Positions 6,804 through 43,157 of a DNA stretch of 64,000 nt are shown here, piece after piece. The number at the start of each line of letters is the position of its first letter. Within the stretch, counting starts at the first letter, position 1. This stretch comes from Chondrosia reniformis (Eukaryota; Porifera; Demospongiae; Chondrillida; Chondrillidae): NCBI GenBank assembly GCA_947172415.1, contig OX359198.1, forward strand, positions 1,023,401 through 1,087,400, given 5' to 3'. The position numbers and the translations under genes are program-made. A model generated the notes under the pieces. The model saw only the letters and a program-made list of their open reading frames with translations, did no database searches and had not been told where the DNA came from.

Positions 6804-7008
6804 ATATAGCATGTAGGAAAATGGTATACCTATACGTATTGGATTTTTCATGATCAAATTAAATGGTTGATTATTATATTTATAACAAAATACATATTGC
6901 ACCCAGCATGCATGTTTATAATACCTGCAGTATATTTTAGGATTGTATTAAGTGAAGTTTATATAGTAATACATTATTATTCATTAGCTTATATAATTGT
7001 TAGTGATA

Positions 7009-8418: not shown

Positions 8419-8454
<36 letters not shown>

Positions 8455-18900: not shown

Positions 18901-21900
18901 ATCTGGCCCAGTTGAGCTATATGTACGTATATATGTAGTTTACATGTCTAAAGTTGCAGTTGGTCCAGTCCTTGTTCACAAATACAAGTTTTCACCTGGG
19001 CCAATGACCTTATATATATATTTATATAATCCACTTATATATAGGCTGGTGTAAACTGTAAATATAAAATAGCGCATATTATATTGACTTGGAACTCAAT
19101 AAAGTTTGAAATATAAATATAGTTATATACAATCCATATGCATGTAATGTATACATGCATATATATATATATATGTACATTCTGTATTTTCTGTATATAT
19201 AGGTCCACTTATAAGATACTCACTTCTTCTTGAAGAAAATAAGATTGAAAACCATGCAGATGAGTGCATAAATTATGCCAATGATAGCTGACGATGTCAT
19301 TATAGCAAATAGTGCAGTATTAATCTCAGCGATACCGTCATGTGGTATTCCATCTATACACAAATATACATACAAACTAATCTCTCAGGCAATATATACA
19401 TGTTAATACTTACACCCCATTGCCATGAAAAGAGCTAATAATAGGAGGTATTATCTACCATATAGGATATACAGTGTGAACTAGTTCATGACAGGAAGTG
19501 TCCAGCTCAAAAGCCAGGGCAATGGGGTATATAAATCACACTACCATTTCCAAACATGTGAAATTGCTGTGAAATTTAAATTTCACAAGGTGAGAAGGCT
19601 GTTAAATTTCATAGTTTCCAGTTATTAATTAAAATTCACAAACAATTTCACATGTTTGGAAATTTCACGGCCCTACTTAACAATTTCACGGCCCTACTTA
19701 ACAATTTCACGGCCCTACTTAACAATTTCATGGCCCTACTTAACAATTTCACGGCCCTACTTAACAATTTCACGGCCCTACTTAACAATTTCACGGCCCT
19801 ACTTAACAATTTCACGGCCCTACTTAACAATTTCACGGCCCTACTTAACAATTTCACGGCCCTGTTTTATTTCACCCTGAGAAATGCATATGTTTGCCAT
19901 AAAGTTAACAGCCCTGTGAAATGTAATATAGTTTTTTCACAGTCCTGTCATGAGGTGTCCGAGGTGATGGGCTATTATAATTGATCAGTTATATATAGCC
20001 CATCACCTCGGACTTCCTGAATATATATAATTCTCTGCCCTGACTTTGTCTCGGCCTCGTATATATTATTCTGGCTATCGTCCTCAATCTGATGCAGTTG
20101 GTTCTTTTAGGATTCGGACATTTCAACCTTGAGGGGTCTTCTTCAGCAACTCAGAAGACCTCTAGTGTCAAAACATCCTAATCCTAAAAGAACCAATGTT
20201 AACTACATTTCTAAATACTCAAAAGAGATGAACCATTTCAAAGATAGGCATTTCTTAGTTACAATCTTATGTGGGCATACGTACGTACTTGGAAAAATAA
20301 TACTTTCAGCTTCCAACTCAATATGTTTACTTTTTCTACTGTAATTACCCACTGTTCTTCTCCTGATATCATTCCCATCGAAATAATACTGAGTGACATT
20401 TGTTATTACTCCCAGACGATCACCAGTGGTTTCATTAAACTTCAAAGGACCCTATACAAGTAAATAAAAACATTTACAAAAATGATGTTAGAAGTAGGAA
20501 TGGCAGTGTTCACTAATACATCTGCAAAACGTATCGAAACAATACATATATGATATGATAAGGCTAATCATACAGAAGTTGCATATACACTAAAATATAA
20601 GTAACTTAACCATACACTTCTGTGTTTGGGTGCATCAAGCTGCAGTAGGAATATTAATGGTACAGGGCTTGCTGGTGCTTATAACTGGCTGCAAATAACC
20701 GAATATAACTAAAAATCGCTTCATTGGTGATTTATGAGGTGTTGCTTGCTAATACATTAGATAGGTCGGCCATGTTTTTTTTGGCCATTCCTACAGTACG
20801 CTCTGAAATATGTACATGAATTGAGAAAGTAAATCAGGAAAAAATAAAAATGGGATCTTATAATATATATAGAGACCAATTATGATTTATATACATGTAC
20901 ATGCATATTGCTAATTATAAATTGCTTACTGATGTCCCCATGGGATTACTGAAGTTTATGTGAATGTTAGAAAAGCTTTCTAGCAATTCTTTGGCAATCT
21001 TTGAATTCGATGCTCTGTTATTGGAACTTATATCAAGAGGGTTGAATCCATTGAACATATCTGGATCCTTGCTCAAGGTGCTATTCAGAACTAGACTAAC
21101 TGCCAAGATAGCATCAAAGGCAGGCATAGCAAAAGAGTTTGCATAAATAGTTTTTCCCATGTCGCTAAGCTTGTTATAATAATCATTATTAATTTCAGAT
21201 GCAGTCTATATAAGCAGAGATATGTATTTATATATAGACACATGTTACAATATTGAATAATGCTTTAAATGCATACATACAGTGTACCAACCTTATTTGT
21301 AAATTTGACTTTCACGTCTGAATTTGACACTCGTTGACTACTAAATGCAAATGCATTGTTGAGTGCTACTTTGAGGTGACTACCGTCACATTTTCTAAGA
21401 AACACATTAATAACTATCAGAGATTGTGATTACGCATATATATGCATATTACAGAGGTTTACTCCATTCAAATATTTCCAACCGTACAAGCCATAATATT
21501 ATGCATATATAAACCGTACAAATATACAGGAATTGGTGTTTATTATTACAGTTTGTCTCTAGTGATACATAGTGTATATAAGTATATACTTAAATGGTAT
21601 ATAAGGATCAGGGGATGTATAATTTGAATATATATATATATATACACAATATGTACATGAACTTATATAGCATCTCTTACAAGCCTCCATTTGTTGTTAC
21701 ACTTAGGTTTATATTGTTCCAATAAGTGTCATCGTACCAACCAGAAACAATCAATTGATGGTTCGGATAATAAACACCGTGATGAAAAGCCTATATTAAA
21801 ATATATATATCATTAATTATCTATACACATGCAAGCTATATAAGTACTTGTAAAGTGTTATGCATGTATATATGTGCAAACGATATGTGAAAAGATAGGG

Positions 21901-24180
21901 GATAGTTGTTCCATCATTCCAAAAAAAAGAATTTTTTTAACAATCAGAAGCCTTTGCTTGATCATGTGATATCAATAATATTGTTATATAACACTCACTT
22001 GGCAAAGAAACTGTTCAAAATTCTCCCTGTATGCATTGGCAATGATAACCCTTGGTGGATCAGCCTATATAGTATGTTTTAAAGATGAATAGTTACTTAA
22101 TTAAAGATTGATCGCTGTGTATAATTATTACAATCAGCATAATATTATATATACCTCCCTTTATCCCTCCCATAGAAGCCATATGAATTACTTACATTAC
22201 AAAATTTGCTCTGACAGTATATGTAATAACCAGATACTCACCCACAGTGAATCCAACCCCTTCAAAGGTATACTGGACAGAAAGCGATATACCCTAACAT
22301 CTAATCCTTTTGAGTGTAAGTACATTTCAATTTTGTCTAGATTCTACATTTATAATGTATGATAGTATTACATAGATATGCAAATTTCATTATAACTAAG
22401 TATACGTACGATATTAAGCATTTAATAAAGGGCCACTGACATGTTTGCATGATGTTAATTCACAGCCCATGAATTTTAGAGATGAATTTACCAAAAAGTG
22501 CAAATTTCTGCCCAAAAAGCATGCAGACAACTTTCAATACAATTTTGTGTAGTTTCAAGTGCTTCTCTGCAATATATCAAAATCATGCAAACATGTCAGT
22601 GGCCCTTCAAAGTGATCTAGAATACTTACAAATTGAAATAAATTCTCATTCTGAGCAACCAGGGCCACCTCCCTCCAGACATTGCTGTACTTTAACACAA
22701 GATCTGCCTGTCCATAATGCGCATCTGTAACTCTTGGTATTGCTCCAATGTGATACTTGTATAGTGTCCTATCAGCTACCACTGGCGTTATGCTGGCAAA
22801 TGATACCTATATATACATATATAGGAACCTGTATAATCTGACACTAATATATAGTGTCCTCAAAAATGTTCGTGGTCAATTTAGTATATATATAAAAGTA
22901 ACAAAGTAAATCCATACCATATTAAGTATATTAATATACCAATGTATTGGGAAAATGAAACCATCCCTACATAGAGAGTACTACTGTACTCTCTGATATA
23001 CGTATTAGTGTATATAGAGTACTAACAAAATATATCCCATACCATGCATCTAGTTACAGGTAAGTCTTCATTCATGCGTAATGAATGGTGAAATTCCCAG
23101 ACATCATGTCTGGTCAAGCAGAAGAAGGAAGAAATATTGCAAATCATAAGCATTTTCCTAGTTGATGTCTTGATGCTCCAGACCACGCACTTCAAACACA
23201 TGTTCCAGTACGTATACACTATTATGCTATAACTCTTCTTTAGATTTAATATATGTATAAGTAAATTTACCTGTACTGTTTTCCAGTAGGTAGAGAGTTC
23301 TGCCATTGGCTCTGTTGCCACCGAACAGCCACCTCCTAGGAAGATGGGGGACTTGTTGGTGTAATTTGATCTCCAAAAGTTCAAATATGCCCGAATGGCT
23401 CCAGATCGTGTGCACTATAATAAATATATAACTTTTAAGACACAGCATATATATGATAAGAACTAATACTTATATTTAGGTGATTCATCTATAGTCTTTT
23501 GAGTGTACATGTCTCTGTATAGATGCATATACGTAACACTAAAGATGAACCATCTCAAAAATATATAGAGATATCAACCATTTAACAACTATACGTATAT
23601 ATGCACACATGTACGTACACATGCATATATATAGATAAGCTCATACCGTATATATAAGTGAGGTTTTTGGCCATATGCATGGGTGACACTATTGCATTCC
23701 ACATGCACTTTGGCATGCAAAATTATCACAACTATTGTTATACAGTAATTAAATATAATTATACATTACCATGGAGTCAAATGTATCTCCTGTTTCTGGT
23801 GTATCTACTGATACAAGTTCCAGAGAGTAATTTCCTAACACTGAAGCATTGTTAACATAATCAACAGCCATTTCTGCTGCAGTAAGAGTACCTATATAAA
23901 ATGTATTATTTTATTATCCATTGAAGTTCAGTATATATACGTATATACTGTACTTATGTACATGCAATATAAAATATAGAAGAGATAAATTATTACATGT
24001 ATGTATATTTATATTCTAACCATAGCTGTTAAATCCTCCATTTTTGGTGTCTTTGGCTATCAGAAATCCAAGATGCAGCGGTTCCTTCTCTTCTTGCGCA
24101 GCCTCTCCAATGGAAGAAAAACTGGCTGCTAAGAAAAGCCAAATAATAGTTAATTTAGAAACCCATTTTAACTGATTCAT
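15928..24180 (-). CDS. GABA-B receptor-like class C GPCR, copy B
   Basis: Seventeen exons with the same lengths and phases as copy A: 24021-24180, 23770-23891, 23271-23414, 22630-22806, 22242-22343, 21999-22064, 21681-21790, 21292-21394, 20930-21205, 20289-20451, 19224-19353, 18548-18671, 18131-18250, 17661-17783, 17044-17358, 16600-16776, 15928-16002. All frames are open and splice sites GT-AG (828 aa). The order is the same: signal peptide, ligand-binding ectodomain, seven helices, coiled-coil tail. Differences from A cluster in the ectodomain (ANAYRENF for ANAYMETF, WKTVQ for WNTVQ, YPNHQ for YPNYQ) and after TM4 (ASRQNVEVQKK for ATRENVKDQKR), which could shift ligand or partner choice. 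The upstream neighbour, head-to-head, is the truncated CLN6 copy. Confidence 0.93.
16130..16235 (-). repeat. tRNA-derived SINE in intron 16 of copy B
   Basis: Sister of the copy at 7195. The head is better preserved on the minus strand: GTAGCTCAGAGGCAGAGCAC forms a D-arm with a GCTC/GAGC stem, followed by a GAGTTAGATTCCC B-box-like element and a shared non-tRNA body. The anticodon arm is irregular, so it is not called as a functional tRNA. Confidence 0.62.
16335..16545. repeat. Dispersed intronic repeat copy in receptor B
   Basis: Longer copy of the family at 7400. After the CTGGCCCAGTGGAGAAG core it keeps the second half, CCAGGACCTGTATCTTCATC ... TTTAGCTCCCTATA ... TAGCATGTAGGAAAATGGTG, which matches 49605-49765 in the CDP-DAG synthase gene. 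Confidence 0.65.
17880..18120. mobile_element. Foldback MITE in intron 13 of copy B
   Basis: Orthologue of the element at 9235. The arms TTTGTTAGCATCTATATCTA and GATATAGATGCTAAAAATGG enclose the CCCAGTGGAGAAGAAG core. Confidence 0.72.
19546..19920. repeat. Foldback repeat with 21-bp minisatellite, copy B intron 10
   Basis: A 21-bp unit (TTTCACGGCCCTACTTAACAA) is repeated about ten times between 19655 and 19865 and is nearly perfect; one unit reads TTTCATGG. It abuts an inverted repeat whose arms (TTCCAAACATGTGAAATT / AATTTCACATGTTTGGAA) lie at ~19549 and ~19645. The unit length is a multiple of three, so both strands show long artefactual ORFs. Copies A and C lack it. Confidence 0.93.
19958..20012. 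repeat. Perfect 18-bp-stem hairpin
   Basis: TCCGAGGTGATGGGCTAT and its exact reverse complement ATAGCCCATCACCTCGGA flank a ~19-nt AT-rich loop. It lies in intron 10 of copy B, downstream of the minisatellite, and is absent from A and C. It may be a short MITE remnant. Confidence 0.8.
20493..20794. mobile_element. Insertion private to copy B intron 9
   Basis: About 300 bp with short inverted ends GTAGGAATGGC / GCCATTCCTAC, found in B between exons 9 and 10. The homologous introns of A and C run straight through. No ORF; probably a non-autonomous DNA element. The right-hand flank (TGTACATGAATTGA) resumes the A/C sequence. Confidence 0.6.
22955..23005. repeat. Solo 3' hairpin end of the CTAGA...CTGA element (copy B)
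   Basis: The CATCCCTACATAGAGAGTAC...GTACTCTCTGA hairpin end of the elements at 26717 and 45601 stands alone here, in intron 3, with no element body. An identical remnant is in receptor C near 41000-41045. It is absent from A. Confidence 0.65.
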
Positions 24181-25134: not shown

Positions 25135-25973
25135 ATGGCTACCGATAAAGCAAGAGATGCCCCTTCAGAGGTTGGAACCAAGTTTCACATTGACGTATGG
25201 CTCACACTCGTTCTGGTCAATTGGATATGTGACTTTGGTCGACCCATCGCCGCCCTCTTTGTTCCTCTAAAGTACACGCCGCTCTACTACCCTAGCATTG
25301 GAGACGTCTTTCATTTTATTTACAACATCATTGTACCGCTATGCCACTTCAAGCTGATTGAACGAAGTTACCTTCGGATACCCCGTACGTTGCTGCACTT
25401 GTTGGTTACAATATTCGCCGTGGGCGCTAGCTTGCATTTAGTGGGCGACTCTTTTAATCATCGACTGATTCATTTGGGATACCAAAACCATTTGCATTTG
25501 ACTGAAAATCCGCTCATTAAGGTAGTAGTACTTGCATTTAGAAAGAATTACTGTAGTTTTGATAATTTTATGATAATAGGCTGCAAAATGTACATAATTC
25601 TGCTGTATGATGTCTGTAGATTTGTTGCACTATTTATGTATACACATGGCTACCCATATACCCTAATCATACTCATTTACAATTATTCTAAATTTTTATT
25701 TTACTTTATTTTTGGCAGAATATTTCTACTTGTTTGAGTCAGCACAACCCAGATGGAGGCCATATTGTTGATGTGTTCAAGCTAGTATACTTCTACGATG
25801 AGTACCTTGGCCATTGGATGTGGTACCTGCCTCATTTTACTATCCTCATCTGGGTCTTCTCATCTTCATTTGTGCCTTCCTCATCCAGCCAGAACACTTT
25901 ACCTTTTGCAGCAGCCATCTTGGTTCCAATTGATGTGTTGTATCAGTGGTACCTCATCACAGAGGATCATTAG
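25135..25973 (+). pseudogene. CLN6: Truncated CLN6 copy, 3' end replaced by a mobile element
   Basis: Exon 1 is 25135-25521 and exon 2 begins at 25719, as in the complete copy at 43158. Homology stops at 25965, after WYLITE. The frame then runs into the hairpin element and stops two codons later (~211 residues of an expected 295), removing the last membrane segments and the conserved C-terminus. The protein part that remains is almost identical to the intact copy (WICDFG for WVCDFG), and the intron splice sites survive. A truncated product might be made, but loss of the C-terminal third argues for a pseudogene left by duplication. Confidence 0.85.
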
Positions 25974-26605
25974 CTGTGCATGAATCATACAACACCCTTG
26001 CTTGTAGGATTCATGTATAGCTAATGCTTCACTGTGTAACATCCCTTTCTTGTTTCTCTACTTTTTATGCCATCCCTACATCTTCACTATTTTTGTAGAA
26101 AATTTTTAATATTTCTAGTTTCTGTACTTTTTATGGAGCATGGGCTAGGAATTAGATTCATATAATTAAAATCATTTTGGTTTCGCAATTTTCGACTGAT
26201 TATGACGTCATTAAAATGGCGACTTTATTGAGGCCTTGACTCTAGGGTCATGAAAACCGTCATGCTCAATAATAGCGTTATCGCTCTCGCTTCTACAAAA
26301 GAATACAGCTCGGAAAATTTGCAGTAGTTTCGTGTAACAATTAGTCCAAAAGCTTATATAGTTTTTTAGTTATGGCTGACGAAGAATAAGAAGAAGAAGA
26401 ATATGAAGAAGACGAAAATGGGAATTTTTAAAGTTTATTATTTCGCCAGCGGGACATATCCGCTTGCTTTTAAGGTCTATTTAGAGTATGTATATTGTAT
26501 ATTTAGCTATACAAAGCCTTGTTTTGTCGATTTTCGGCCTATTTCGGGATTTCGCTCCTATACCAATGTATGGGGAAAACGAAAAAAACTGTATATATAA
26601 ATAAT
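25966..26605. mobile_element. Truncated copy of the CTAGA...CTGA hairpin element
   Basis: Starts inside the loop of the element's 5' hairpin (CATTAGCTGTGCATGAATCA), directly fused to CLN6 copy 1. It runs to the GTATGGGGAAAACGAAA region and lacks the terminal hairpin. The interior is almost identical to 26830-27430. It carries a TGACGTCA palindrome (cAMP-response-element type) near 26200, followed by ATTAAAATGGCGAC. Confidence 0.85.
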
Positions 26606-26636: not shown

Positions 26637-26716
26637 GCATCCTAGAACATCTCCAAAGATGTTCTAGGATGCAGTCTGTTGGCTCCCAGAAATACCCTGA
26701 AACCCTTCAGTTGTTA
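26637..26716 (-). repeat. Short retrotransposon fragment, same as 6733-6803
   Basis: About 75 bp match the 5' part of the non-LTR fragment beside receptor A (GATGCAGTCTGTTGGCTCCC ... CCCTTCAGTTGTTA). In A this runs directly into the receptor's 3' flank; here the flank is interrupted by the hairpin element at 26717. Confidence 0.85.
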
Positions 26717-27469
26717 CTAGAAATATTAAAAATTTTCTACAAAAATAGTGAAGATGTAGGGATGGCATAAAAAGTAGAGAAACAAGAAAGGGATGTTACA
26801 CAGTGAAGCATTAGCTGTGCATGAATCATACAACACCCTTGCTTGTAGGATTCATGTATAGCTAATGCTTCACTGTGTAACATCCCTTTCTTGTTTCTCT
26901 CCTTTTTATGCCATCCCTACATCTTCACTATTTTTGTAGAAAATTTTTAATATTTCTAGTTTCTGTACTTTTTATGGAGCATGGGCTAGGAATTAGATTC
27001 GTATAATTAAAATCATTTTGGTTTCGCAATCTTCGACTGATTATGACGTCATTAAAATGGCGACTTTATTGAGGCCTTGACTCTAGGGTCATGAAAACCG
27101 CCATGCTCAATAATAGCGTTATCGCTCTCGCTTCTACAAAAGAATACAGCTCGGAAAATTTGCAGTAGTTTCGTGTAACAATTAGTCCAAAAGCTTATAT
27201 AGTTTTTTAGTTATGGCTGACGAAGAATAAGAAGAAGAAGAATATGAAGAAGACGAAAATGGGAATTTTTAAAGTTTATTATTTCGCCAGCGGGACATAT
27301 TCGCTTGCTTTTAAGGTCTATTTAGAGTATGTATATTGTATATTTAGCTATACATAGCCTTGTTTTGTCGATTTTCGGCCTATTTCGGGATTTCGCTCCT
27401 ATACCAATGTATGGGAAAACGAAAAAAACCGTGTCATCCCTACATAGGGAGTACTACCGTACTCCCTGA
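26717..27469. mobile_element. Full-length 753-bp CTAGA...CTGA hairpin element
   Basis: The receptor A flank (TTGTTATATAGCATGTAGG) is the empty site; here the element interrupts it, with TA on both sides. The 5' end is a ~245-bp near-perfect hairpin (GATGTAGGGATGGCATAAAA ... TTTTATGCCATCCCTACATC). The body holds TGACGTCATTAAAATGGCGA and an acidic GAAGAAGAAGAA stretch. The 3' end is the GTAC-TACC-GTAC hairpin ending CTGA. It encodes no transposase. The superfamily is unresolved: the CTGA end recalls Helitrons, but the hairpin sits too close to the end. Confidence 0.88.
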
Positions 27470-27659
27470 TATATATAGCATGTAGGAAAATGGTATACCT
27501 ATACGAATTGGATTTTTCATGATCAAATTAAATGGTTGATTATTATATTTATAACAAAATACATATTGCACCCAGCATGCATGTTTATAATACCTGCAGT
27601 ATATTTTAGGATTGTATTAAGTGAAGTTTATATTCATTAGCTTATAATTGTTGGTGATA

Positions 27660-30600
27660 TTAGACAATGTCTTTTCCTTGAGAAATATCATCATCAGTCA
27701 CATATCCACTCTGCATACCTTCTTTATCATTCCCCTAGAGTAATAAGGTATATAGATATCTTGAAGTTTGAATCTTAATTTTTCTATATATATACGTATA
27801 TTATATACGAATATATCATAAGAAGAAGAATATAGCTTTTTAAATAGCATGTAGGAAAATGGTGTATTAGATTTTTTGATATATAAATAATCAAGAGTCC
27901 CTATAGCTATTATATTCCTCAATGCTTACCTCATATTTATCTAATTTAGCCGACAGTTCATTTATCTTGTTTTGCAAAACTTTAATTGTCTCTGTCATAC
28001 CCACATTAGAGGGAGCAGTTATTTTAGATCCTTTATAAGTTGGAAGACTAAAATTCAGTGCTGTATCGATACTATTATCATTTCTTATCCGATATAATCC
28101 CACCATCTGCATATAGAAGCAATGGATATATAAATATTATGCACATGTACCTATGTATAATATTATGTGTATATACTCTATCTACACATATGTGTATAAA
28201 AGGTATATATATGTATGTTCTATGATCAGTAAACTTGATTATATTAAACTTATGTACATATTAATTTTTGGAGACATTAAGAAATGCCATTGAACTGTGT
28301 AATAATATGATTTTAAAAACTGGAATATACGTATATACAGTATACTGAGAAATGACTATATACAGCTTCTTAAGATTAAAGAAATTATTACATAATATTC
28401 ACACATGCAGTGGCTTACTCTCGGTATGAAAAGCAGGCTTAGTATAGCAAATACTGATAGAATTATTCCCAATGAGAGAACAGCATAGCGGACATTTTGA
28501 TCAATCAGAGCTTGTAAAATACCGATAGGAACGAGTGGAATGCAGGCCACAACAGTGCAATACACACACGCGGCAATGTACTTTGAGTCATTCAGAGCCT
28601 TGATGTTAACTTTGCGGTTCTCAAATGCCAAGAATACTCCAATAACCAGGTAGATTGCCTTATAGGCAAAGAATGTTATGAACACAGGAAGAGAGCCCTC
28701 AGATATACATAATAGGGTTAGATCTCTTGACATCTATATTCAACATATATATATATATATATATATATTAATGATGTTTCTAACAATGGTGTATATACGT
28801 ACGCATGCATCAGTATTAGTGTGACTAAAGATTTGTACTGTGATTATCCTAGGATTCATTTGTATATCTCTCTCTATATATGGACTATAGTGTTCTCATG
28901 TCTGCTATATATACAGTACAAGTTACAATATAATATATTAATGCTGTATTATACAATCAAGTACTCTACACAGGGCAAGTTACTAATTTATAGAGATGCA
29001 AATGATCATCTTCAGTGTATACTAAGGTGTGAAAAGGTAATTGGTAGACCATGTGTGTTCTATATACCTTGTACAAACTACTAATAATATGCAGAAGTTA
29101 AATGATTTTTCAAGCCCGCATGCATCAGTATTAGTGTGACTAAAGACTTGTACTGTGATTATCCTAGGATTCGTTTGCATATCTCTCTCTCTATATATAC
29201 TATATATGGACTATAGTGTTCTTATGTCTGCTATATATACAGTACAAGTTACAATATAATATATTAATGCTGTATTATACAGTACTTACCTCCCTTTTCT
29301 GATCCTTCACATTTTCTCTTGTTGCTGGCACTGATGTGACAATTATTAGATAAATAATGTCTATTGTCAATAATATGACAATAGCAATCAACAACGTCCA
29401 ATCCTTGGGTGGCTGAAGGGAGTGCATGAATTACAGAATAATGTCATTTAAAACATTTATTATATGTAATACTATATATATGTACGTATATACATAATAC
29501 AATAATTGTATTATGTGTATACATACGTACATACACCATTGTTAGAATCTATATCTACTTTAGAGTAAAAGGTCTATAGGGAATTAAACCTAGTGAGAGA
29601 TTATAGCATGCATTAAATATTAAAATACATATACTGACCCAGTGGAGAAGAAGAGAAAACTCTTATATCCTCATCTCCTCATGCATCTGTATCCAAAGCT
29701 CTCACTAGGTTTAATTCCCTATAGACCTTTTACTCTAAAGTAGATATAGATGTACCTCAAATGCCAGCTTGCTCTTTTTCTTCAGAGAGGAAAAGATAAA
29801 ATATATCCTCCAAGTCTTCACCAGCAGGGAACCAAATATCAGAGTGAAGCCAATTGAAGCCACCCAAAGAGTAATCTAAATAATACATGTTATAATATGA
29901 TTCATTATATGATATCGTCATTAATGTAGTGTATATATATAAGTACTAATGACAGCTAATGTATTATATAATGTACATATATATATATATAATATATATA
30001 TTCATTATTGTTCCAGCTGTTTTATATACCAATTTATAAGACACTTATACAATTAAAGGAAATGTGAAAATTTACATGAAAAATATATTCATCTCACAAT
30101 TATAGTAAAACACTTGAGCAATGGGATAGAGGCCGGCATATGGTATATTCCGGCACATATGTACGTATGCTTACATTACAGAGGTAACGCATGACTTGGT
30201 GACTCTCTATTATGCCCAGGAGTATCACTTCCACATACATCACGATAGCACCCACACAGATGATCACATTAATTACTGGACTTGTCAGTCTTATGAATCT
30301 AATTAACCAAAAAATGTAAATACATTTATAGCATTACAAATATAATCCTGTGCGTTACGTATACATGTATACGTATATAACCATAATTAGTAAAAATGAC
30401 CATGACGTATATAACCATAATTAAGGGCTTTCTTTGTCAACTTGATCATAGCCAATTGTTCATATATAGCCATGCAGGAGCTCGAGCCTTGGAAAAGCAA
30501 GTATCATTCTGTTGCATTTATATACAGTACCAGTCACATCTAGGCCCATGCAGTCAAGCTATATATATGTATGTGTATTTACATGTAGCAGTTTGTCCAG

Positions 30601-33600
30601 TCTCTGTTCACATTACATATATACGTATATACATGCAAGTTTTCACCTGGGCCAATGACCTTATATACGTATATAACCCACTTATATATAAGCTGCTGTA
30701 AATTATAATAAAATAGCACATATATATAGTATATACTTGAAAAATCTAAGTATGTATAAGTTACAACCCATATGCATGCAATGTATACATGCATATATTG
30801 TACATTCTGTATTTTCTGTATATAGGTCCACTTATAAGATACTCACTTCTTCTTGAAGAAAATAAGATTGAAAACCATGCAGATGAGTGCATAAATTATG
30901 CCAATGATAGCTGACGATGTCATTATAGCAAATAGTGCAGTATCAATCTCAGCGATACCATCATGTGGTATTCCATCTATATATACACAAATATACATAC
31001 AAACTAATCTCCCAGGCAATATATACATGTTAATACTTACACCCCATTGAGACAGAAAGAGCTATATAATAATAAATAGGGGGCATTTCTACAGTGTACA
31101 GCGAGAATTGCTGATTAATAGGATATACAGTGTGAACTAGTTCATAACAGGAAGTGTCCAGTTCAAATGCCAGGGCAATGGGGTATATAAATCAGTTATA
31201 GCCCATAAAATTAGCCAGAATATACTTACTCTGCCCCAGCTTGCCTCGGCCTCGTATATATATATATATTATATATGTTCTGGCTACAGTCCTCACTTCT
31301 GGGTTATAGCTATATACTATTGTAAATATGTCTGATAGCTATTAGTTATTAGATGACAGGGATTTCTTCTGTACCTTATCTTGAATTCAGATGGTTCATC
31401 TTTTTAAGTCTTTTGAGTATCCACAGAATCTGATGCAGTTGGTTCTTTTAGGATTAAGACATTTCAATATCGAGGGGTCTTCTTCAGCAACTCAAAAGAC
31501 CCCCAATGTTGAACATCCGAATCCTAAAAGAACCAACTGCATCTCTAGACGCTCAAAAGACATAAACAGATGAACCATTTCAAAGATGTGCATTTCTTAG
31601 TTACAATCTTATGTGGGCATACGTACGTACTTGGAAAAATAATACTTTCAGCTTCCAACTCAATGTGTTTACTTTTTCTGCTGTAATTACCCACTGTTCT
31701 TCTCCTGATATCATTCCCATCAAAATAATACTGAGTGACATTGGTTATTATTCCCAGACGATCACCAGTTGTTTCATTAAACTTCAAAGGACCCTATATG
31801 TACATGAATTGAAAGAGTAAATAAAAAATAAAATGCATGGGATCCTATAAAATATAGAGACCAATTATGATTTATATACATGTACATGCATACTGCTAAT
31901 TATAAATTGCTTACTGATGCCCCCATGGGATTACTGAAGTTTATGTGAATGTTGGAAAAGCTTTCTAGCAATTCTTTGGCAATCTTTGAATTCGATGCTC
32001 GGTTATTGGAACTTATATCAAGAGGGTTGAATCCATTGAACATATCTGGATCCTTGCTCAAGGTGCTATTCAGAACTAGACTAACTGCCAAGATAGCATC
32101 AAAGGCAGGCATAGCATATGTGTTTGCATTAATAATTTTTCCCATGTCGCTAAGCCTGTTATAATAATCATTATTAATTTCAGATGCAGTCTATATAAGC
32201 AGAGATATGTATTTATATATAGACACATGTTACAATATTGAATAATGCTTTAAATGCATACATACAGTGTACCAACCTTATTTGTAAATTTGACTTTCAC
32301 GTCTGAATTTGACACTCGTTGACTACTAAATGCAAATGCATTGTTGAGTGCTACTTTGAGGTGACTACCGTCACATTTTCTAAGCAACACATTAAAAACT
32401 ATCTTGACGTTTTTCAGAGATTGTGATTACGCATATATATGCATATTACAGAGGTTTACTCCATTCAAATATTTCCAACCGTACAAGCCATAATATTATG
32501 CATATATAAACCGTACAAATATACAGGAATTGGTGTTTATTATTACAGTTTGTCTCTAGTGATACATAGTGTATATAAATATATACTTAAATGGTATATA
32601 AGGATCAGGGGATGTATAATTTGAATATATATACAGTGCAAGTTACAATATACTAAGGTAATCTAATATAATATATATAATATAAATAAATAAATAATAT
32701 AATATAATATAATTAATTCATATGGCTCCAAGAAAGAACCTAAAAACAAAATGGGCATATCATCATAAAGTTTAGGGTATAAAACTCATTTTAAATTAAG
32801 GGATTTTTGATTTAGGCCTCCGTTTGTTAGAAAACAGAGGACAAAGTCTGCATATAAAAGGCCATAGGACTATAGAAAACATATGGGAAATTTATATTGA
32901 AACAATGTGTTATATTAATAAAAATTATCAATTTGTCATATAACTGTGAAATCAACATATATCATGGTACATGTGTATAAGAAACGTCTGGCGAAGTTTT
33001 GCTTAATTAAATGAGCAAAATAATCAAGATACAATGAAGAATTCAAAGTTACGATTGCGCAAGCTGGTGATGTATTGTGATGTTCTTCTATTGCGTCACC
33101 AACACCTTCGTATGTCGCTCGGTACACACATTTTGAGAATCTTGTGACGTTGCGAAAACGTCACCGCCTCGTTGCTAAAGAAGATCATCCTTTCGAGAAC
33201 GGCTATGACAAGTCGACGCTCTCCTACGAGAAGGAGCTACCGAATAAGAGAGTTGTAGCGAAGGTTAGATAAAGCGTATTTGTATACGTTCATGCTAAGT
33301 TTAAGCCAAAAGTGTTGCTATATATATTGATGTAAAGAAATAAAAGAAATTCGTTTAGACGACCATAATAAAACTGTGGTACTTTAAGCTCCGTCATCTC
33401 TTCTTATGTTTTCTATTACTTATCCATGTGTGTACGTGTGCAGGAGTGTAATTGGATACGTAGGGGTGGATTTGGATAAATATGCGTGCGTGCAAGCTCA
33501 TGAGTTGAGTTGAGATGAGTTGAGATAATGAGTTTCACTATAATGAGATTCCACTCTATATACAGTGCAAGTAAATTCATGTACACATTCATATATATAT

Positions 33601-36600
33601 AGGGCGTGGCTTCTATTTTCGGACACCATTAATAATCGGACACCTGATCTCAGCCGTTCATTAATCGATTGTCGTCATTCTTGGCACGTCACACGAGTAC
33701 ACTAAGATTACTAGCCCTGCCAAGTTTGAACTAGATCTGCGCTTCTTTAACAGAGTTACAGTAGAAATATCGAAGTGTCTGGAAATATATATTTTCGGAC
33801 AGATAGCATGTATTTTCGGACAGCGAAGCGTACGTCGCAAGGCGCAGGTATTTGCTAACTCTTTCTACATTGCCGAATGGGTACAGACTTGTGCTAATTA
33901 GGACTAAAATTTCAAAAGAAAACTCTCTTCCACGAAGGAGCTAGGGAACTTTTAATATGGGTGGTCGGGGTCACGAATTTTCGGACACTAATTTAATAAC
34001 TTCCGTTGTGAAATTTCGAATTTGCTACTTATTTGCGACCTAGAAATCGAAGACCGGTGCATAACTTTACCTTTTATCTGTTTTAGAGGACCTACCACGC
34101 ATCTTAAAGGTATGCCAAAGACTTTCCATAATTGTATTTGTAAACATAGGGACTAACTGTCTGAGGTACATATTTGTGGCTTCTTGCTATACAAACTAAT
34201 TGATAACTCATTGAACAGCACAACACAAATGCTTTCTTTTGGACCTCCAGATCTAGACATGGCTAGCTTTGTACCATTTCATTCTGGTGATGAAATTCAG
34301 CCACTTGAGTCACGTATAGTGAGATCTCAGTCCAAGATTGCAATGAAAATTCAGTTACCTCCTCAACGGTGTCCAACCTACAGAGAATATAGCACCACCA
34401 GTGTTGAGAGGGCCTATAAGGCTGTCACTATGGGTGAAATGAGTTTGAGAAAGGCTGCTGAAGAGTATGGTGTTCCTCGATCTACTTTACATGATAAGGT
34501 AAAGGGAAAGAGTGCAATTAATGTAAAGAGTGGCACCAAGAAGTACCTTAGTGATGGAGAAGAAGCCAAGCTAGTAGAGTTTTTAGCCGGGTGTGCTACA
34601 GTTGGCTATGCCAAGTCTAGAAAAGAGGTACAAGCAATTGTACAACAAATAGTTAGTTTGAGGGATCCACACATAGAGATAACAAAGGGGTGGTGGGATT
34701 CCTTTAAGCACAGACACCCTGAAATAACATTGCGCCAAGCAGAGCCTCTATCATACGCAAGAGCTGTTGCCACAAATCCACAAGTAGTGGAAAAGTACTT
34801 CAGTCTACTTGAAGAAACTATGGAAGCAAATGGCTTGACTCGCTGTCCTGGCCAAATATTTAATTGCGATGAGACAGGAATGCCTCTCGCACATAAGTCA
34901 GCAAAAGTTGTATCCTTGGTAGGACAGAAGCATCCATATGCCATTACATCTGGCGAGAAGGCACAAATCACCGTATTAGCATGTGCTAGTGCCAGTGGAT
35001 ACACTATACCACCCATGGTCATTTTTGACAGAAAACAGTTACAAGTAGAAATGACCAGAAATGAGGTACCAGGCACTTTCTATGGTCTTTCAGACTCTGG
35101 ATGGATGGATATGCAGCTCTTTGAGGAGTGGTTTAAAGGTCATTTCTTGGTTCATGCTCCATCTGCTAGGCCTCTACTTTTGCTCCTAGATGGCCATTCT
35201 TCACACTACAACCCTAGGCTTCTCAGAATTGCTGCAGAGGAAGGAGTGATTCTACTCTGCCTACCGCCGCACACCACCCACCTTCTGCAGCCATTGGATA
35301 ATGGGACATTTTCCTCTCTAAAGGATCATTGGCGAAGAGAGTGCCAGAAATTTTATGCTGAGAACCCAGGTAAGGTCTTAAATCGCAGAAATTTTATGGG
35401 AGTATTCCACAAGGCCTGGGTTCGAGGAATGACCATCAGCAATGTTATAGCATGCTTTCGCTCAGTAGGAGTATATCCTTTAGATAAACAGGTAGTTGTG
35501 TCACAGCTCCCTTGTGAAAATGGTATGAGCCCTACCCGTGAAGTCCCTATGCCCTATGTACCCTTCTGTACACCAAGAAGAGGTGAAACTCCTGGACCTC
35601 GTGCAGCTGATGACGAGTCACTGAAGCACACCATGGCCACCTACTCATCTGATGAAATAGAGAGCTTCCAAGCTAGACTGCAAGCGTCTAAAAACTCACG
35701 ATATGCAGTCTGGTTGGAAACCTTCCACCCAAGAGCACATGAATCAACAAGAGAAGATACATTAGGAGTAATATTGAAACGCCCTATGCCACCAGCTCAA
35801 TACAAAAAGCTACAGAGCCATCCTACTTGTGGGCGTGTACTTACCAGCCAACAATGTATTCAAGAATTAGCTGAAAAGGAAGAGAAAAAAAGGAGACAGG
35901 AAGAAGAAAAAGAGGAAAGAAAGAAACAGCGTGAGAAAAAGAAGAGGGAAAAGGAAGAAGAGAAGAAGCAGAAGAGAAAAAAGCAGGAAATAAAGAAGAC
36001 CCTTTGTGAAAAAAAACTAATGAATCAAGCATCATTACAGATAGGTATATACATGACTCATTAAGAAGCACATACAGATCTAAATATATATATAACATGC
36101 ATAATTACAAATTAAACTCACCATATGTACATTCTCTTTGCATATAGTGACTTCATCTGCACAGCATGATGAGGAATTTACAATGGAAGAGGTGAAAAAA
36201 TTTCAGTGCCGATTGGAGGAGGGGTATGACTTACCCGATCCACGTTATTCAATGTGGCTTAAACAGATTGGTATCAGGCCTAGTCCAAAAAAAAAATCCT
36301 GCAAAACGTCCAGTATACAGACAACTGTCCATAACTTGGATGAGGAGAAGGCACAGACATCTTGTTTGGATGGGCAATGCAAACACCCCAAGGCCAGAAA
36401 ATGGATTGGCTGTGACAGTTGCACTCGGTGGTACCACTGCCTCTGTGCAAAAGTACCACATAAGAAAGCCACATTAGTCAATTTTACATGTTCTAATTGT
36501 CTCTAACTGATGCATTTGACATGTGAAAGCATTTGTTTGGACTTACTGACTATATTTATACTCTAGCTTGTCATTATTATATACAATGTATTATTCTGGT

Positions 36601-39600
36601 AGCTTCAGAAGTAATATGTTAACTGCATATCCAGGAGAATCATCACTCACACTACAGCTGGTTTATTACCCAAAATATTTGGTATGGATGCATAAAAAAG
36701 GATCTTATATATACTAAAGTCCTGTGCTTGGATTTACTTTTCCGAGGTATAACACTGGCGTAGGAAGCAGGGGGGCGCCCCCCCCAAGCACCAGCGAAGG
36801 GGGGCTGGGCCCCTCCTAAAAATAGGGCAACACTGCCAAGTTGTGAAGTTCATACAATGAAGGTATGAATACCACAACTTGCCCAATATAGTAGCCAGTC
36901 TGTTGTACTGGACTGATGTCTGAAGTTGCTAAAGCCTCGCAGTGATTAGTCTCGCGTACGGCTAGCAGTAGCCCATTCATTTCCCTGCACTGTCCAAGTG
37001 TCTCCTGCCGCCATTTTGTATTGCGCAAGTGGAAGGAGTTTTGTATAGTTTGAGTTTGATTTAAAGCTGTGACTACATAGGCAATGAAATAACAGTATAT
37101 TAAAACGTCAAAAAATTTTTCGCTCGCTTCGCTCGCAAACCTTACTCACATTATTACAGCCCCCCCATTCTTAAACTACTTCCTACGCCCCTGTATAATG
37201 CATTATTCATGCCCAATAAGCTTAGGGTGATTTGTTTTCATTTAGAACTGTCAATTCTAAATTAGAGTTATTCTAAATTGAAGGCTGTTGACATTTAAAA
37301 ACTGTTACCCAGTGTCCGAAAATTCGTGACCCCGACCACCCATATTTAAAGTTCCCTAGCTCCTTCGTGGAAGAGAGTTTTCTTTTGAAATTTTAGTCCT
37401 AATTAGCACAAGTCTGTACCCATTCGGCAATGTAGAAAGAGTTAGCAAATACCTGCGCCTTGCGACGTACGCTTCGCTGTCCGAAAATACATGCTATCTG
37501 TCCGAAAATATATATTTCCAGACACTTCGATATTTCTACTGTAACTCTGTTAAGGAAGCGCAGATCTAGTTCAAACTTGGCAGGGCTAGTAATCTTAGTG
37601 TACTCGTGTGACGTGCCAAGAATGACGACAATCGATTAATGAACGGCTGAGATCAGGTGTCCGATTATTAATGGTGTCCGAAAATAGAAGCCACGCCCTA
37701 TATATATTAATTGTCCATGTGTAGGAATAAGGAGTGCTATATTAAGCATGTTTAAATACAATCAAGTACTACACAGTGCAAGTTACAAAAATTTACATGG
37801 ATGCAAGTGACTCCCAAGATAATCACACTGAGGTATATAATATAATACGGATGCAAATGACTCCCAAAATAATCACAATCAGGTATATTAAACGCTACAA
37901 GACTTTAGCCACACTGAAATTCTCAACTGCTGCATACAGAGTAGTAGTCTGTACAGATCATATAAGGTTAAACGCATGGCCTTCCAATTACCTTTTCACA
38001 CCTTAGTATAGACTGAAGATGATGCATCTGGATGCCATTATCAGCAAAAATTCAAGTCTCATGCAGGGGATCTCAGCCAATAATCACCGCAGATTTGACT
38101 TGCCTTGAGTGTCAGCTAGGAGTACCATTGGTTGCTTGCATGCATTCACATAAACAACAGGGTTAGAGACGATTTGGTAACTTGCACACAAGGGACATTG
38201 TTCATGAAATAAATTAAAGGCCCCAGCCTTTATGTCCCTGTGTGCAAGTTACCAAATCGTCTCTAACCCTGTTGTTTATGTGAATGCATGCAAGCAACCA
38301 ATGGTACTCCTAGCTGACACTCAAGGCAAGTCAAATCTGCGGTGATTATTGGCTGAGATCCCCTGCATGAGACTTGAATTTTTGCTGATAATGGCATCCA
38401 GATGCATCATCTTCAGTCTATACTTAGGTGTGAAAAGGTAATTGGAAGGCCATGCGTTTAACCTTATATGATCTGTAGAGACTACTACTCTGTATGCAGC
38501 AGTTGAGAATTTCAGTGTGGCTAAAGTCTTGTAGCGTTTAATATACCTGATTGTGATTATTTTGGGAGTCATTTGCATCCGTATTATATTATATACCTCA
38601 GTGTGATTATCTTGGGAGTCACTTGCATCCGTGTATAAATTTGTAACTTGCACTGTGTAGTACTTGATTGTATTTAAACAAGCATAATATATAACACTCC
38701 TTATTCCTACACATGGACAATTGCAAGTAAAAAATGAATAAAAACATAAGAAGAGAAGACAGAGCTTTAATTACCAAAGTTTTAATATATACGGTCGACT
38801 AAACGAATTTCTTTTGCATCAGTATAGGGACAATTCTGCCTCAAAATTAACGGGAACGTATACAAATACGCTTTATCTCACCTTCGCTACAACTCGCTTA
38901 TTCGGTAGCTCCTTCTCGTAGGAGAGCGTCGACTAAGACAGAGTTTAAATTACCAAAGTACGAATTTCTTTTACATGCATCAATATATAGCAACAATTCT
39001 GGCTTAAACTTAACATGAACGTATACAAATACGCTTTATCTAACCTTCGCTACAACTCGCTTATTCGGTAGCTCCTTCTCGTAGGAGAGCGTCGACTTGT
39101 CATAGCCGTTCTCGAAAGGATGATCTTCTTTAGCAACGAGGCGGTGACGTTTTCGCAACGTCACAAGATTCACAAAATGTGTGTACGGAGCGACATACGA
39201 AGGTGTTGGTGACGCATTCGAAGAACATCACAATACATCACCAGCTTGCGCAATCGTAACTTTGAATTCTTCATTATATCTTGATTATTTTGCTCATTTA
39301 ATTAAGCAAAACTTCGCCAGACGTTTCTTATACACATGTACCATGATATATGTTGATTTCACAGTTATCTGACAAACTGAAATTTTTTATCAATATAACA
39401 CATGGTTTGCATATAAATTTCCCATAGGTTTTCTATAGTCCTATGGCCTTTTATATGCAGACTTTGTCCTCCGTTTTCTAACAAACGGAGGCCTAAATAA
39501 AAAATCCCTTCTTTTAAAACGAGTTTTATACCCTATACTTTATGATGATATGCCCATTTTGTTTCTAGGTCCTTTCTTGGAGCCATATGAATTATTTAAT

Positions 39601-42220
39601 TAATTATTTATTTATTTATTTATATTATATTAGATTACCTTTGTATATTGTAACTTGCACTGTATATATATATATACAATATGTACATGAACTTATATAG
39701 CATCTCTTACAAGCCTCCATTTGTTGTTACACTTAGGTTTATATTGTTCCAATAAGTGTCATCGTACCAACCAGAAACAATCAATTGATGGTTCGGATAA
39801 TAAACACCGTGATGAAAAGCCTATATTAAAATATATATATCATTAATTATCTATACACATGCAAGCTATATAAGTACTTGTAAAGTGTTATGCATGTATA
39901 TATGTGCAAACGATATGTGAAAAGATAGGGGATAGTTGTTCCATCATTCCAAAAAAAAGAAATTTTTTAACAATCAGAAGCCTTTGCTTGATCATGTGAT
40001 ATCAATAATATTGTTATATAACACTCACTTGGCAAAGAAACTGTTCAAAATTCTCCCTGTATGCATTGGCAATGATAACCCTTGGTGGATCAGCCTATAT
40101 AGTATGTTTTAAAGATGAATAGTTACTTAATTAAAGATTGATCGCTGTGTATAATTATTACAATCAGCATAATATTATATATACCTCCCTTTATCCCTCC
40201 TATAGAAGCCATATGAATTACTTACATTACAAAATGATTTTTATTTGCTCTGACAGTATATGTAATAACCAGATACTCACCCACAGTGAATCCAATCCCT
40301 TCAAAGGTATACTGGACAGAAAGCGATATACCCTAACATCTAATCCTTTTGAGTGTAAGTACATTTCAATTTTGTCTAGATTCTACATTTATAATGTATG
40401 ATAGTATTACATAGATATGCAAATTTCATTATAACTAAGTATACGTACGATATTAAGCATTTAATAAAGGGCCACTGACATGTTTGCATGATGTTAATTC
40501 ACAGCCCATGAATTTTAGAGATGAATTTACCAAAAAGTGCAAATTTCTGCCCAAAAAGCATGCAGACAACTTTCAATACAATTTTGTGTTGTTTCAAGTG
40601 CTTCTCTGCAATATATCAAAATCATGCAAACATGTCAGTGGCCCTTCAAAGTGATCTAGAATACTTACAAATTGAAATAAATTCTCATTCTGAGCAACCA
40701 GGGCCACCTCTCTCCAGACATTGCTGTACTTTAACACAAGATCTGCCTGTCCATAATGCGCATCTGTAACTCTTGGTATTGCTCCAATGTGATACTTGTA
40801 TAGTGTCCTATCAGCTACCACTGGCGTTATGCTGGCAAATGATACCTATATATACATATATAGGAACCTGTATAATCTGACACTAATATATAGTGTCCTC
40901 AAAAATGTTCGTGGTCAATTTTAGTATATATATAAAAGTAACAAAGTAAATCCATACCATATTAAGTATATTAATATACCAATGTATTGGGAAAATGAAA
41001 CCATCCCTACATAGAGAGTACTACTGTACTCTCTGATATACGTATTAGTGTATATAGAGTACTAACAAAATATATATATCCCATACCATGCATCTAGTTA
41101 CAGGTAAGTCTTCATTCATGCGTAATGAATGGTGAAATTCCCAGACATCATGTCTGGTCAAGCAGAAGAAGGAAGAAATATTGCAAATCATAAGCATTTT
41201 CCTAGTTGATGTCTTGATGCTCCAGACCACGCACTTCAAACACATGTTCCAGTACGTATACACTATTATGCTATAACTCTTCTTTAGATTTAATATATGT
41301 ATAAGTAAATTTACCTGTACTGTTTTCCAGTAGGTAGAGAGTTCTGCCATTGGCTCTGTTGCCACCGAACAGCCACCTCCTAGGAAGATGGGGGACTTGT
41401 TGGTGTAATTTGATCTCCAAAAGTTCAAATATGCCCGAATGGCTCCAGATCGTGTGCACTATAATAAATATATAACTTTTAAGACACAGCATATATATGA
41501 TAAGAACTAATACTTATATTTAGGTGATTCATCTATAGTCTTTTGAGTGTACATGTCTCTGAATAGATGCATATACGTAACACTAAAGATGAACCATCTC
41601 AAAAATGTATAGAGATATCAGCCATTTAACAACTATACGTATATATGCACACATGTACGTACACATGCATATAGATAAGCTCATACCGTATATATAAGTG
41701 AGGTTTTTGGCCATATGCATGGGTGACACTATTGCATTCCACATGCACTTTGGCATGCAAAATTATCACAACTATTGTTATACAGTAATTAAATATAATT
41801 ATACATTACCATGGAGTCAAATGTATCTCCTGTTTCTGGTGTATCTACTGATACAAGTTCCAGAGAGTAATTTCCTAACACTGAAGCATTGTTAACATAA
41901 TCAACAGCCATTTCTGCTGCAGTAAGAGTACCTATATAAAATGTATTATTTTATTATCCATTGAAGTTCAGTATATATACGTATATACTGTACTTATGTA
42001 CATGCAATATAAAATATAGAAGAGATAAATTATTACATGTATGTATATTTATATTCTAACCATAGCTGTTAAATCCTCCATTTTTGGTGTCTTTGGCTAT
42101 CAGAAATCCAAGATGCAGCGGTTCCTTCTCTTCTTGCGCAGCCTCTCCAATGGAAGAAAAACTGGCTGCTAAGAAAAGCCAAATAATAGTTAATTTAGAA
42201 ACCCATTTTAACTGATTCAT
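27660..42220 (-). CDS. GABA-B receptor-like class C GPCR, copy C (mosaic, interrupted intron)
   Basis: Seventeen exons, same lengths as A and B: 42061-42220, 41810-41931, 41315-41458, 40669-40845, 40281-40382, 40029-40094, 39711-39820, 32277-32379, 31915-32190, 31631-31793, 30847-30976, 30175-30298, 29756-29875, 29290-29412, 28419-28733, 27930-28106, 27660-27734. All frames are open and splice sites GT-AG, so an 828-aa receptor is possible despite the 7-kb insertion in intron 7. Exons 10-17 follow copy A (PATRENVKDQKRE), exons 1-8 follow copy B (ANAYRENF, WKTVQ), and exon 9 has private changes (GKIINANTYAMPAF for GKTIYANSFAMPAF). Domains are as in copy A. Its head-to-head neighbour is the intact CLN6. 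The transposon lies antisense to the gene and could affect splicing of intron 7. Confidence 0.9.
29535..29755. mobile_element. Foldback MITE in intron 13 of copy C
   Basis: Orthologue of 9235-9475. The right arm is cut short by a small deletion that brings it against the exon 13 donor: GATATAGATGTACCTCAAAT, where A has an extra ~20 bp. Confidence 0.7.
31387..31575. mobile_element. Foldback MITE in intron 10 of copy C
   Basis: Nearly identical to 11100-11290 in copy A, including both nested inverted repeats. This is part of the A-like half of gene C. Confidence 0.72.
32633..33345. repeat. Left arm of the 7-kb inverted-repeat element
   Basis: Pairs with the right arm. It includes a 63-codon ORF (minus, 32936-33127) mirrored at 39181-39372 on the plus strand with few changes, and a GC-richer stretch (33140-33260) with GTGACG...CGTCAC and GTCGACGCTCTCCTACGAGA. 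No function recognised for the ORF; its conservation may only reflect recent arm duplication. Confidence 0.8.
33602..33988. repeat. Left terminal inverted repeat of the pogo-type element
   Basis: Ends in GGTCACGAATTTTCGGACAC at the inner edge. Its reverse complement is 37312-37698, with only a few mismatches seen by eye. Confidence 0.9.
34229..36506 (+). CDS. Pogo/Tigger-like transposase with C-terminal PHD finger
   Basis: Two exons, 34229-36044 and 36148-36506, joined by a 103-bp GT-AG intron that keeps the frame (724 aa). An open frame continues 15 codons upstream without an ATG; the first ATG is 34229 and another lies at 34259. Domains in order: Psq-type helix-turn-helix (~50-95, SLRKAAEEYGVPRSTLHDKV), CENP-B-like DNA-binding region (~105-180, GWWDSFKHRHPEITLRQAE), DDE catalytic core with D214 (FNCDETGM), D321 (LLLLDGHSSH) and D357 (LQPLDNGTF), a spacing of 35 between the last two. 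A Lys/Glu-rich coiled segment (~550-600) and a PHD finger (C...C, GCDSC, WYHCLC, FTCSNC) follow. No internal stop. Family role: cut-and-paste transposition at TA sites. The PHD finger is inferred to bind histone tails. Confidence 0.93.
36753..37193. mobile_element. 441-bp MITE inside the pogo-type element
   Basis: Inverted ends CACTGGCGTAGGAAGCAG / CTACTTCCTACGCCCCTG are flanked by a TATAA direct repeat on each side (36748-36752 and 37194-37198). Subterminal C- and G-runs occur near 36770-36815 and 37159-37166. No coding capacity. It lies 3' of the transposase ORF, so it does not disrupt it. Confidence 0.85.
37312..37698. repeat. Right terminal inverted repeat of the pogo-type element
   Basis: Reverse complement of 33602-33988, ending CGAAAATAGAAGCCACGCCC before TA. 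Confidence 0.9.
37709..38722. repeat. 1-kb near-perfect palindrome
   Basis: Arms of ~489 bp (37709-38197 and 38233-38722) around a ~35-bp loop. The left arm begins AATTGTCCATGTGTAGGAAT; the right arm ends in its complement. Differences are a few bases, e.g. AAATTTACATGG against AAATTTATACACGG. Each arm carries GTACTACACAGTGCAAGTTA ~40 bp inside its outer end. ORFs on both arms mirror each other and are not genes. Short relatives occur in receptor introns (8660-8780, 28965-29085). Confidence 0.93.
38795..39663. repeat. Right arm of the 7-kb element, with internal duplication
   Basis: Reverse complement of 32633-33345, except that ~130 bp (ACGAATTTCTTTT ... GTAGGAGAGCGTCGAC) is present twice in tandem (38815-38930 and 38960-39095). 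Confidence 0.82.
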
Positions 42221-43157
42221 TTTACTACCACAACTTGAGGTAAAAATGAAATCAGGATTAGACAGAACACAAATTTAGCTATGTACGTGTTGACTACAAA
42301 CTGGACAATTCAGCTTATCTGAATAATACTATAATAATGCATATATATGTATATATATAAATTCTATTGTAAAGTTCATGGTTGATATGGTTAATGTGAC
42401 TCGCACCATTAGCTCTATTAACGTTGCAAAATTGAGTGATCTCAGTATTATATTTAAAAGGATATATACATACCAAAATGAAATGCTCATAAGTTAAAAG
42501 GTTTCTTATAGAAAATACAGTACCTTGAACCATGGCCTATATTTCAACTAATTCATAAAGTTATTAATTGTACTGTATTATTCAGTTCAACAGTATAATC
42601 CAGCTGCAGGTATTTTAGCTGGAAAGTTCTATAAGTCATAAATCCACAATGAAATTTGAGGTACATATGTATGGATAAACTTATATTTGAGAAAAACAAA
42701 ATTCTTATGGATTTATAATGATTAGAGTTTGGATATACAGCAATTTTTCACTATTAGTGGTTGAATAGGAAGGTTAAAAGACAAGGGGGAATTTTAGTAG
42801 CTAATGAGTTGAAACAAATTAAAGGCAGATGGTTCAGCTAATCAGAGAATGATGGAGTTTCTAAAGGGGCATGATTGTAAAAATAGACTAGTGCTAGCTT
42901 TACTTCCATTTATAGGTTGCTCTATGAGGAGGTTACACTAAAGGAATGACATTTCTTTAGGCAGTGAAGGAGAAAGATTAAACATAACAAGGATGCATGG
43001 CACTGTTTAATGCCAAAAGGATTCCATGGTAGACTGTAGCAAATAAATATCAATGCATAGCTAATGTTTAAACCGTGAACGGGTCAATGACTTATGACAT
43101 CAATGTGCCCATGCGACCTTTTGATCATGAGCTAAGATGATTGTGTAATAGTATTAA
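42221..43157. promoter_or_regulatory. Shared upstream region, receptor C / CLN6
   Basis: Divergent intergenic region, nearly identical to 24181-25134 with small indels near 42315-42330 and 42450. Promoter activity in both directions is inferred from gene orientation only. Confidence 0.4.

Follow-up and report, generated by a model that had tools for sequence, protein, structure and literature searches.

Three closely similar receptor genes, here called A, B, and C, stand in tandem in the genome of the sponge Chondrosia reniformis. This locus raises the question of how one of them, gene C, came to follow A along one part of its length and B along the other. We analyzed a stretch of 64,000 nucleotides of contig OX359198.1 (positions 1,023,401 to 1,087,400), hereafter the window, which contains no N bases. 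All results come from one assembly. The coordinates of the features are collected in Table 1.

Table 1. Features of the receptor array, in positions of the window
Feature	Coordinates	Strand	Details
Receptor gene A	7009..14932	-	intact gene of 17 exons and 827 aa, with ATG and a single terminal stop
Receptor gene B	15928..24180	-	17 exons, 827 aa, intact; 16/16 introns GT-AG
Receptor gene C (hybrid)	27660..42220	-	17 exons, 827 aa, intact; ATG at 42220, stop ends at 27660; 16/16 introns GT-AG; Pfam domains
A-type part of C	27472..31954	-	exons 10-17 plus the 3' part of exon 9; 42 mismatches to A in 4469 (0.94%)
Switch interval	31955..32223	-	269 bp of identity between A and B; 7 C-private sites, 6 within 32117-32156
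B-type part of C up to transposon	32224..32633	-	exon 8 with adjoining parts of introns 7 and 8; 3 mismatches/395
B-type part of C	39663..42361	-	exons 1-7 plus adjoining upstream DNA; 9 mismatches/2685
Exon 9 of C	31915..32190	-	aa 328-419; K339R, T346I, Y348N, S351T, F352Y, T418A compared to A and B
Pogo-like DNA transposon	32634..39662	+	7,029 bp, inserted in intron 7 of C; inverted ends starting with CAGTGCAAGTTACAATATAC; lacking in A and B
Upstream flank common to B and C	42362..43979		matches B 24332-25957; 0.99% mismatch (16/1618)
Left-flank repeat remnant	26648..26716		69 bp identical to A left flank 6736-6804
High-copy 757-bp element	26715..27471		between 69-bp remnant and gene C
Truncated copy of 757-bp element	25958..26592		element positions 85-718, cut at both ends

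RESULTS

Three tandem receptor genes

We built the model of gene B from open frames and splice sites and then transferred it to A and C by alignment. GT-AG borders were found in 47 of the 48 introns of the three genes; the sole exception is intron 7 of A, which is GC-AG (15 of 16 introns of A are GT-AG). By self-comparison of the window, the copies extend from 6803 to 15090 (A), from 15752 to 24332 (B), and from 27472 to 42362 (C), and the limits of the C reading frame, on the minus strand, are exactly those given in the original prediction. Protein identity is 95.8% between A and B, 96.5% between A and C, and 97.0% between B and C. The exons of A and B are 97% alike, with 72 differences in 2484 sites, 35 of them amino acid-changing and 37 silent; synonymous divergence in the exons is 7%, and intron divergence is high, with several introns poorly alignable. 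For this contrast we considered homogenization limited to the exons and set it aside, given the poor alignment of those introns. All three genes are oriented in the same direction, and A and B offer enough homology for non-allelic homologous recombination (NAHR).

Other features of the window lie around and within the array. A satellite array with a unit of ~170 bp adjoins gene A at window positions 1 to 5900, its copies being 60 to 94% like the reference copies, and intron 10 of B holds a 21-bp minisatellite (19661 to 19863) where the alignment has gaps in A and C. A 749-codon open frame lies on the minus strand at 60275 to 62524; by eye, its motifs resemble those of a Roc/COR-type GTPase. 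A search of Rfam returned no match in the window.

A single switch along gene C

We made one alignment of A, B, and C for each side of the transposon in intron 7 of C. Gene C is A-type up to position 31954, the last A-type site, in exon 9, and B-type from position 32224, the first B-type site, in intron 8. Plotted along the three copies, the informative sites show a single switch rather than an alternating pattern: a model with one switch fits 1076 of the 1097 sites at which C sides with A or with B (615 in the best of 2000 label shuffles), a count that omits 32 sites with A and B alike and C different, seven three-state sites, and all gapped columns, and that is inflated by intron sites where the introns of A and B are barely homologous. 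The conservative count comes from the exons alone, where one switch fits 64 of 72 informative sites, compared to 52 in the best of 2000 shuffles.

The switch interval is the longest run of identity between A and B in the gene, followed by runs of 163 and 138 bp, and it is where one would expect the two genes to cross over by homologous recombination. The switch occurs inside this block without filler DNA, as NAHR should leave it, with one small exception. This exception is an A-like patch inside the B-like part, made up of site 32396 and a 12-bp indel at 32402 to 32413, which runs against a single switch unless B changed there or a crossover left a repair patch.

Specific markers that had been claimed for the two halves of C agree with this map. 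The marker GTTGGAAAAGC is confined to positions 11664 (A) and 31951 (C), AGACACATGTT to 21236 (B) and 32221 (C), and TTTCACGTCTG to 21310 (B) and 32295 (C). Among the peptide markers, PATRENV is shared by A and C and ANAYRENF by B and C, and GKIINANTYAM is confined to C. The repeated pair in intron 14, described as two MITEs, is present in A (8484-8659/8821-8981) and C (28802-28955/29117-29281) and corresponds by alignment largely to a gap in B.

The sites that depart from one switch are 16 B-type sites on the left and five A-type sites on the right. On the left side, we counted 16 sites private to A and 22 private to C, or 15 and 15 after dropping as alignment artefacts the six C-private sites at 27811 to 27819, which border a large indel, and sites 27467 and 27471, which belong to the neighboring element; these sites are still included in the one-switch counts. 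On the right side, five sites are private to B and three to C. Because the numbers of private sites of the two copies are similar on each side, the exceptions look like ordinary later substitutions. Separately, intron 16 of C lacks ~330 bp at about 27816 compared to A (about 7166 to 7498 in A), a stretch that is part-present in B and adjoins the 163-bp run of identity between A and B; this gap is possibly a second patch in which A and B were homogenized, or a deletion in C.

At the protein level, the switch falls somewhere from residue 328, where exon 9 starts, or shortly before that residue, up to residue 406. The product of exons 1 to 8 differs from B at two of 327 residues, and that of exon 10 and the membrane half differs from A at five of 408, while exon 9 itself is mostly unassignable to either parent. 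The original prediction placed a crossover or conversion tract inside exon 9, joining the ligand-domain half of one paralogue to the membrane half of another. C does combine a 3' half of A type with a 5' half of B type, joined in the exon 9/intron 8 block, but the border between the halves has to be moved, as the switch lies inside the ligand-binding domain.

A transposon in intron 7 of C

The B-like half of C is interrupted by a transposon on which the original prediction was silent. It carries a frame of 635 codons with a DDE_1 domain (PF03184, 3.9e-25) and a helix-turn-helix domain, HTH_psq (PF05225, 8e-10), and it has terminal inverted repeats in which the outermost 20 bases agree exactly and arms of ~730 bp agree at 93%; this combination is that of a pogo-like element of the Tc1/mariner type. 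TA is found on both sides of the element, but the site itself is a (TA)n run. The insertion is probably recent. The transposase frame has a copy at 99% identity on contig C2 (C2:3710437). A second frame has a weak match to the PHD finger, and long internal inverted repeats occupy 37.3 to 38.7 kb. We considered the transposon as the cause of the switch and rejected it: B runs uninterrupted across the insertion site, and 410 bp lie between that site and the end of the switch interval.

A private patch in exon 9

The changes in exon 9 that are found in neither A nor B had been described as lying at the junction. They are real: C has private states at eight of 276 sites in exon 9, compared to six of 2208 in the other exons (P ~1e-6). 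Six of the eight lie within 40 bp, a cluster that was reached in 0 of 5000 random placements; at other widths, clusters as dense were reached in 0 of 5000 placements at 60 columns, 8 at 100, 32 at 200, and 21 at 276. Among the 86 polymorphic exonic sites, the longest run of C-only sites is seven, which none of 20000 shuffles reached. The same exon is abnormally alike in the other two genes, with A and B differing at one of its 276 sites compared to 3.2% in the other exons (P = 0.0012). In the joined exons, the run of 260 identical A and B sites was reached by 411 of 20000 shuffles, which makes it unusual but not extreme.

These patterns suggest that the private changes are probably not a junction product. 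The density of private sites in exon 9, 2.9%, equals the usual exon divergence between A and B. Most likely, the patch is an older version of the sequence that C kept while A and B were later homogenized with each other, or else another parental allele. We favor homogenization of A and B because it explains both their likeness in exon 9 and the density of private sites in C.

Alternatively, the changes may have arisen in C after the gene was formed, through a burst of mutation at the junction or through positive selection on the ligand pocket, a reading that concerns the patch only and is compatible with a crossover. We consider this unlikely. Six of the eight private sites change amino acids, and six sit close together, as such a process could produce. 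However, the 6:2 ratio of changing to silent sites is not unlike the ratio of 35:37 between A and B (Fisher P = 0.26), A/B differences elsewhere are equally clustered (seven in 40 columns of exon 14), and the abnormal likeness of A and B in exon 9 is left unexplained. The position of the changes also speaks for change within C: residues 346 to 352 immediately precede the conserved D-A-I segment of the Venus flytrap, and residue 352 presumably corresponds to Glu465 of GABBR1, so that the cluster would lie near that position. GABBR1 Glu465 interacts with ligands of the GABA site (PMC2656813).

Comparison with other sequences gave no further donor. A whole-genome DNA search for a third donor with 31900 to 32260 matched only A, B, and C, and these three are the only copies of the exon 9 block found in the genome. 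At residue 352, C shares Tyr with the nearest paralogue (contig C10, 2.2 Mb), where A and B have Phe; most of the other sites are uninformative, and both residues are seen at position 352 among other paralogues, by reading of the alignment rows.

Exchanged flanks and a probable duplication scar

The flanks of C match different parents. On the right, C shares its 1.6 kb of upstream flank with B, and we found no match to this flank in the spacer of A. On the left, A and C both have the end of a repeat next to the gene, inserted at an identical base, and the border of B lacks it. This repeat has 14 matches in the genome, two of them within the query itself, and only 69 bp of it are left; because it is repetitive, its weight as evidence rests on its identical position. 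The outer markers are thus exchanged, with an A-type insertion on the left (the 69-bp repeat) and B-type sequence over 1.6 kb on the right, which is the arrangement that NAHR would leave.

Two copies of another element lie between B and C. This element, full-length beside gene C, probably spread recently, because at least 40 other near-full copies at 98 to 100% identity are found in the genome. We had considered this 757-bp element as an ancestral flank of the repeated unit, given a B/C match of 86%, and dropped this idea in view of those copies. The truncated copy joins the upstream flank of B through a common word of 8 bp (CACAGAGG), and with this microhomology the region from 25958 to 26592 is a probable duplication breakpoint.

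Divergence between the copies bears on the number of events. The left half of C has diverged from A (0.94%) as much as the shared upstream flank has diverged between B and C (0.99%; Fisher P = 0.88), as a single event predicts. The right half of the gene differs from B at 12 of 3080 sites (0.39%), below both the left half (P = 0.005) and the upstream flank (P = 0.016); when the right half and flank are combined, the comparison with the left half gives P = 0.07. Because the right half is less diverged, something beyond one event is indicated, perhaps a later exchange or conversion between B and C after the hybrid was formed.

Origin of gene C

We infer that C is a hybrid produced by unequal crossover, that is, NAHR, between the tandem paralogues A and B, with a probability of roughly 0.78. 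The original prediction left crossover and conversion as alternatives; the exchanged flanks favor crossover, because conversion of a third copy would not be expected to exchange them. Under the proposed mechanism, A and B would have crossed over inside their longest block of identity, in exon 9 and intron 8, giving a one-gene haplotype whose 3' half and downstream flank came from A and whose 5' half and upstream flank came from B. A further duplication or unequal exchange would then have set this hybrid beside an intact A-B pair, with 25958 to 26592 as its likely scar. Later, the pogo-like transposon would have inserted into intron 7 of C and the repeat into its left border, and A and B would have been homogenized at exon 9 by a short conversion (≤269 bp), C keeping the older patch.

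Conversion could have acted instead on an old third paralogue, overwritten by A on the left and B on the right, so that the exon 9 patch would be a remnant of the original gene. The density of private sites in exon 9 is that of an independent paralogue, and the right half of C is younger than the left, as two separate conversions would give. We nevertheless regard this origin as improbable: a converted recipient should keep its own flanks unless the tracts overran both ends, whereas the near flanks of C match A over 69 bp and B over 1.6 kb, and the identity of A and B where C is private is left unexplained.

It is more doubtful still that the array is an artefact of assembly, in which an A-B pair on one haplotype and a hybrid C on the other were wrongly joined end to end. 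Divergence near 1% between A and C and in the flank could be allelic, and the genome report gives the primary assembly a k-mer completeness of 69.43%, a value suggestive of strong heterozygosity, and mentions four haplotypic duplications removed in curation (PMC12181767). Against such an error, the window contains no N; the left flank matches A for 69 bp and is then followed by the truncated repeat and the 8-bp microhomology, like a real breakpoint; and C alone carries both a transposon, 410 bp beyond the switch interval, and the 757-bp element that adjoins its left end, markers that single reads with a mean of ~13 kb (10.31 Gb in 0.80 million reads; PMC12181767) should tie to the junction. 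Even then, the hybrid gene would still be real, merely allelic.

Receptor class and function

Judged from sequence, A, B, and C are GABA-B-type class C G protein-coupled receptors (GPCRs). A Pfam search of C detected ANF_receptor (PF01094) at residues 56 to 427 and 7tm_3 (PF00003) at residues 484 to 744, with no other Pfam family at E ≤ 0.001 and no cysteine-rich domain between the two. The closest solved relative of B in the PDB is GABBR2 (E = 1.3e-71, residues 41 to 807), and subunits of the GABA-B receptor make up the top 17 among the best 60 of 72 matches to solved structures. Counted by exon, the genome has 68 matches to 7tm_3, many of them in tight clusters, including one on contig C4 at 7.38 to 7.45 Mb; a large class C receptor family is probably growing in this genome by tandem duplication.

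The structure of C suggests that it probably uses the promoter region of B, a largely B-type ligand domain, and an A-type membrane domain. The proposal of new pairings of ligand and output in the original prediction is weak, with A and B 95.8% identical and exon 10, which belongs to the ligand domain, A-type. In exons 11 to 15, we counted 13 differences between A and B, seven of them in exon 14. By its alignment with GABBR2, exon 14 would correspond to TM4 and the beginning of the second extracellular loop, not to an intracellular loop. Few of the differences thus seem to lie in parts of the protein that would determine G-protein coupling, and any functional claim is therefore modest.

DISCUSSION

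With parents and product side by side, this locus presents a sponge array of class C GPCRs that would have gained a gene by crossover inside a ligand domain. It provides a ready trio, A, B, and their natural hybrid C, for asking whether the choice of ligand or the output changes. The exon 9 patch is where a surprise is most likely. More generally, it offers the lesson that a private patch at the junction of a mosaic can preserve an older sequence and need not be damage from the event. As a long shot, the array may also swap a short cassette of the ligand pocket in exon 9, with selection keeping the different pocket of C (residues 346 to 352) against homogenization; if true, an animal without nerves would be diversifying the specificity of its chemoreceptors through recombination inside the ligand domain.

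The event itself is most likely of a known kind, an ordinary unequal crossover between tandem paralogues. In titles and the starts of abstracts on sponge GABA-B families and on Chondrosia reniformis and receptors, we found no report of this array. Unequal crossover of tandem paralogues makes the deletion-type Lepore globin, red/green opsin, and CYP2D6/2D7 hybrids. Gene C resembles these hybrids in its same-orientation tandem parents, its one clean switch in the longest block of identity, and its outer flanks from different parents. It differs in that it stands in tandem beside both parents, which requires an extra duplication, and in being a GABA-B-type receptor of a sponge with a private patch in the switch zone. 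The low-affinity Fc-gamma receptor cluster is likewise a cluster of receptor genes, treated in a paper in which NAHR, chimeric gene, and tandem duplication appear as terms (PMC6563257), but it involves another receptor class in other animals. Gene C shares with GABBR1 and GABBR2 the order of an ANF_receptor ligand domain followed by 7tm_3, and GABBR2 is the best PDB match for B; in contrast to that pair, the sponge sequences are only distantly alike and form a tandem array with a hybrid member.
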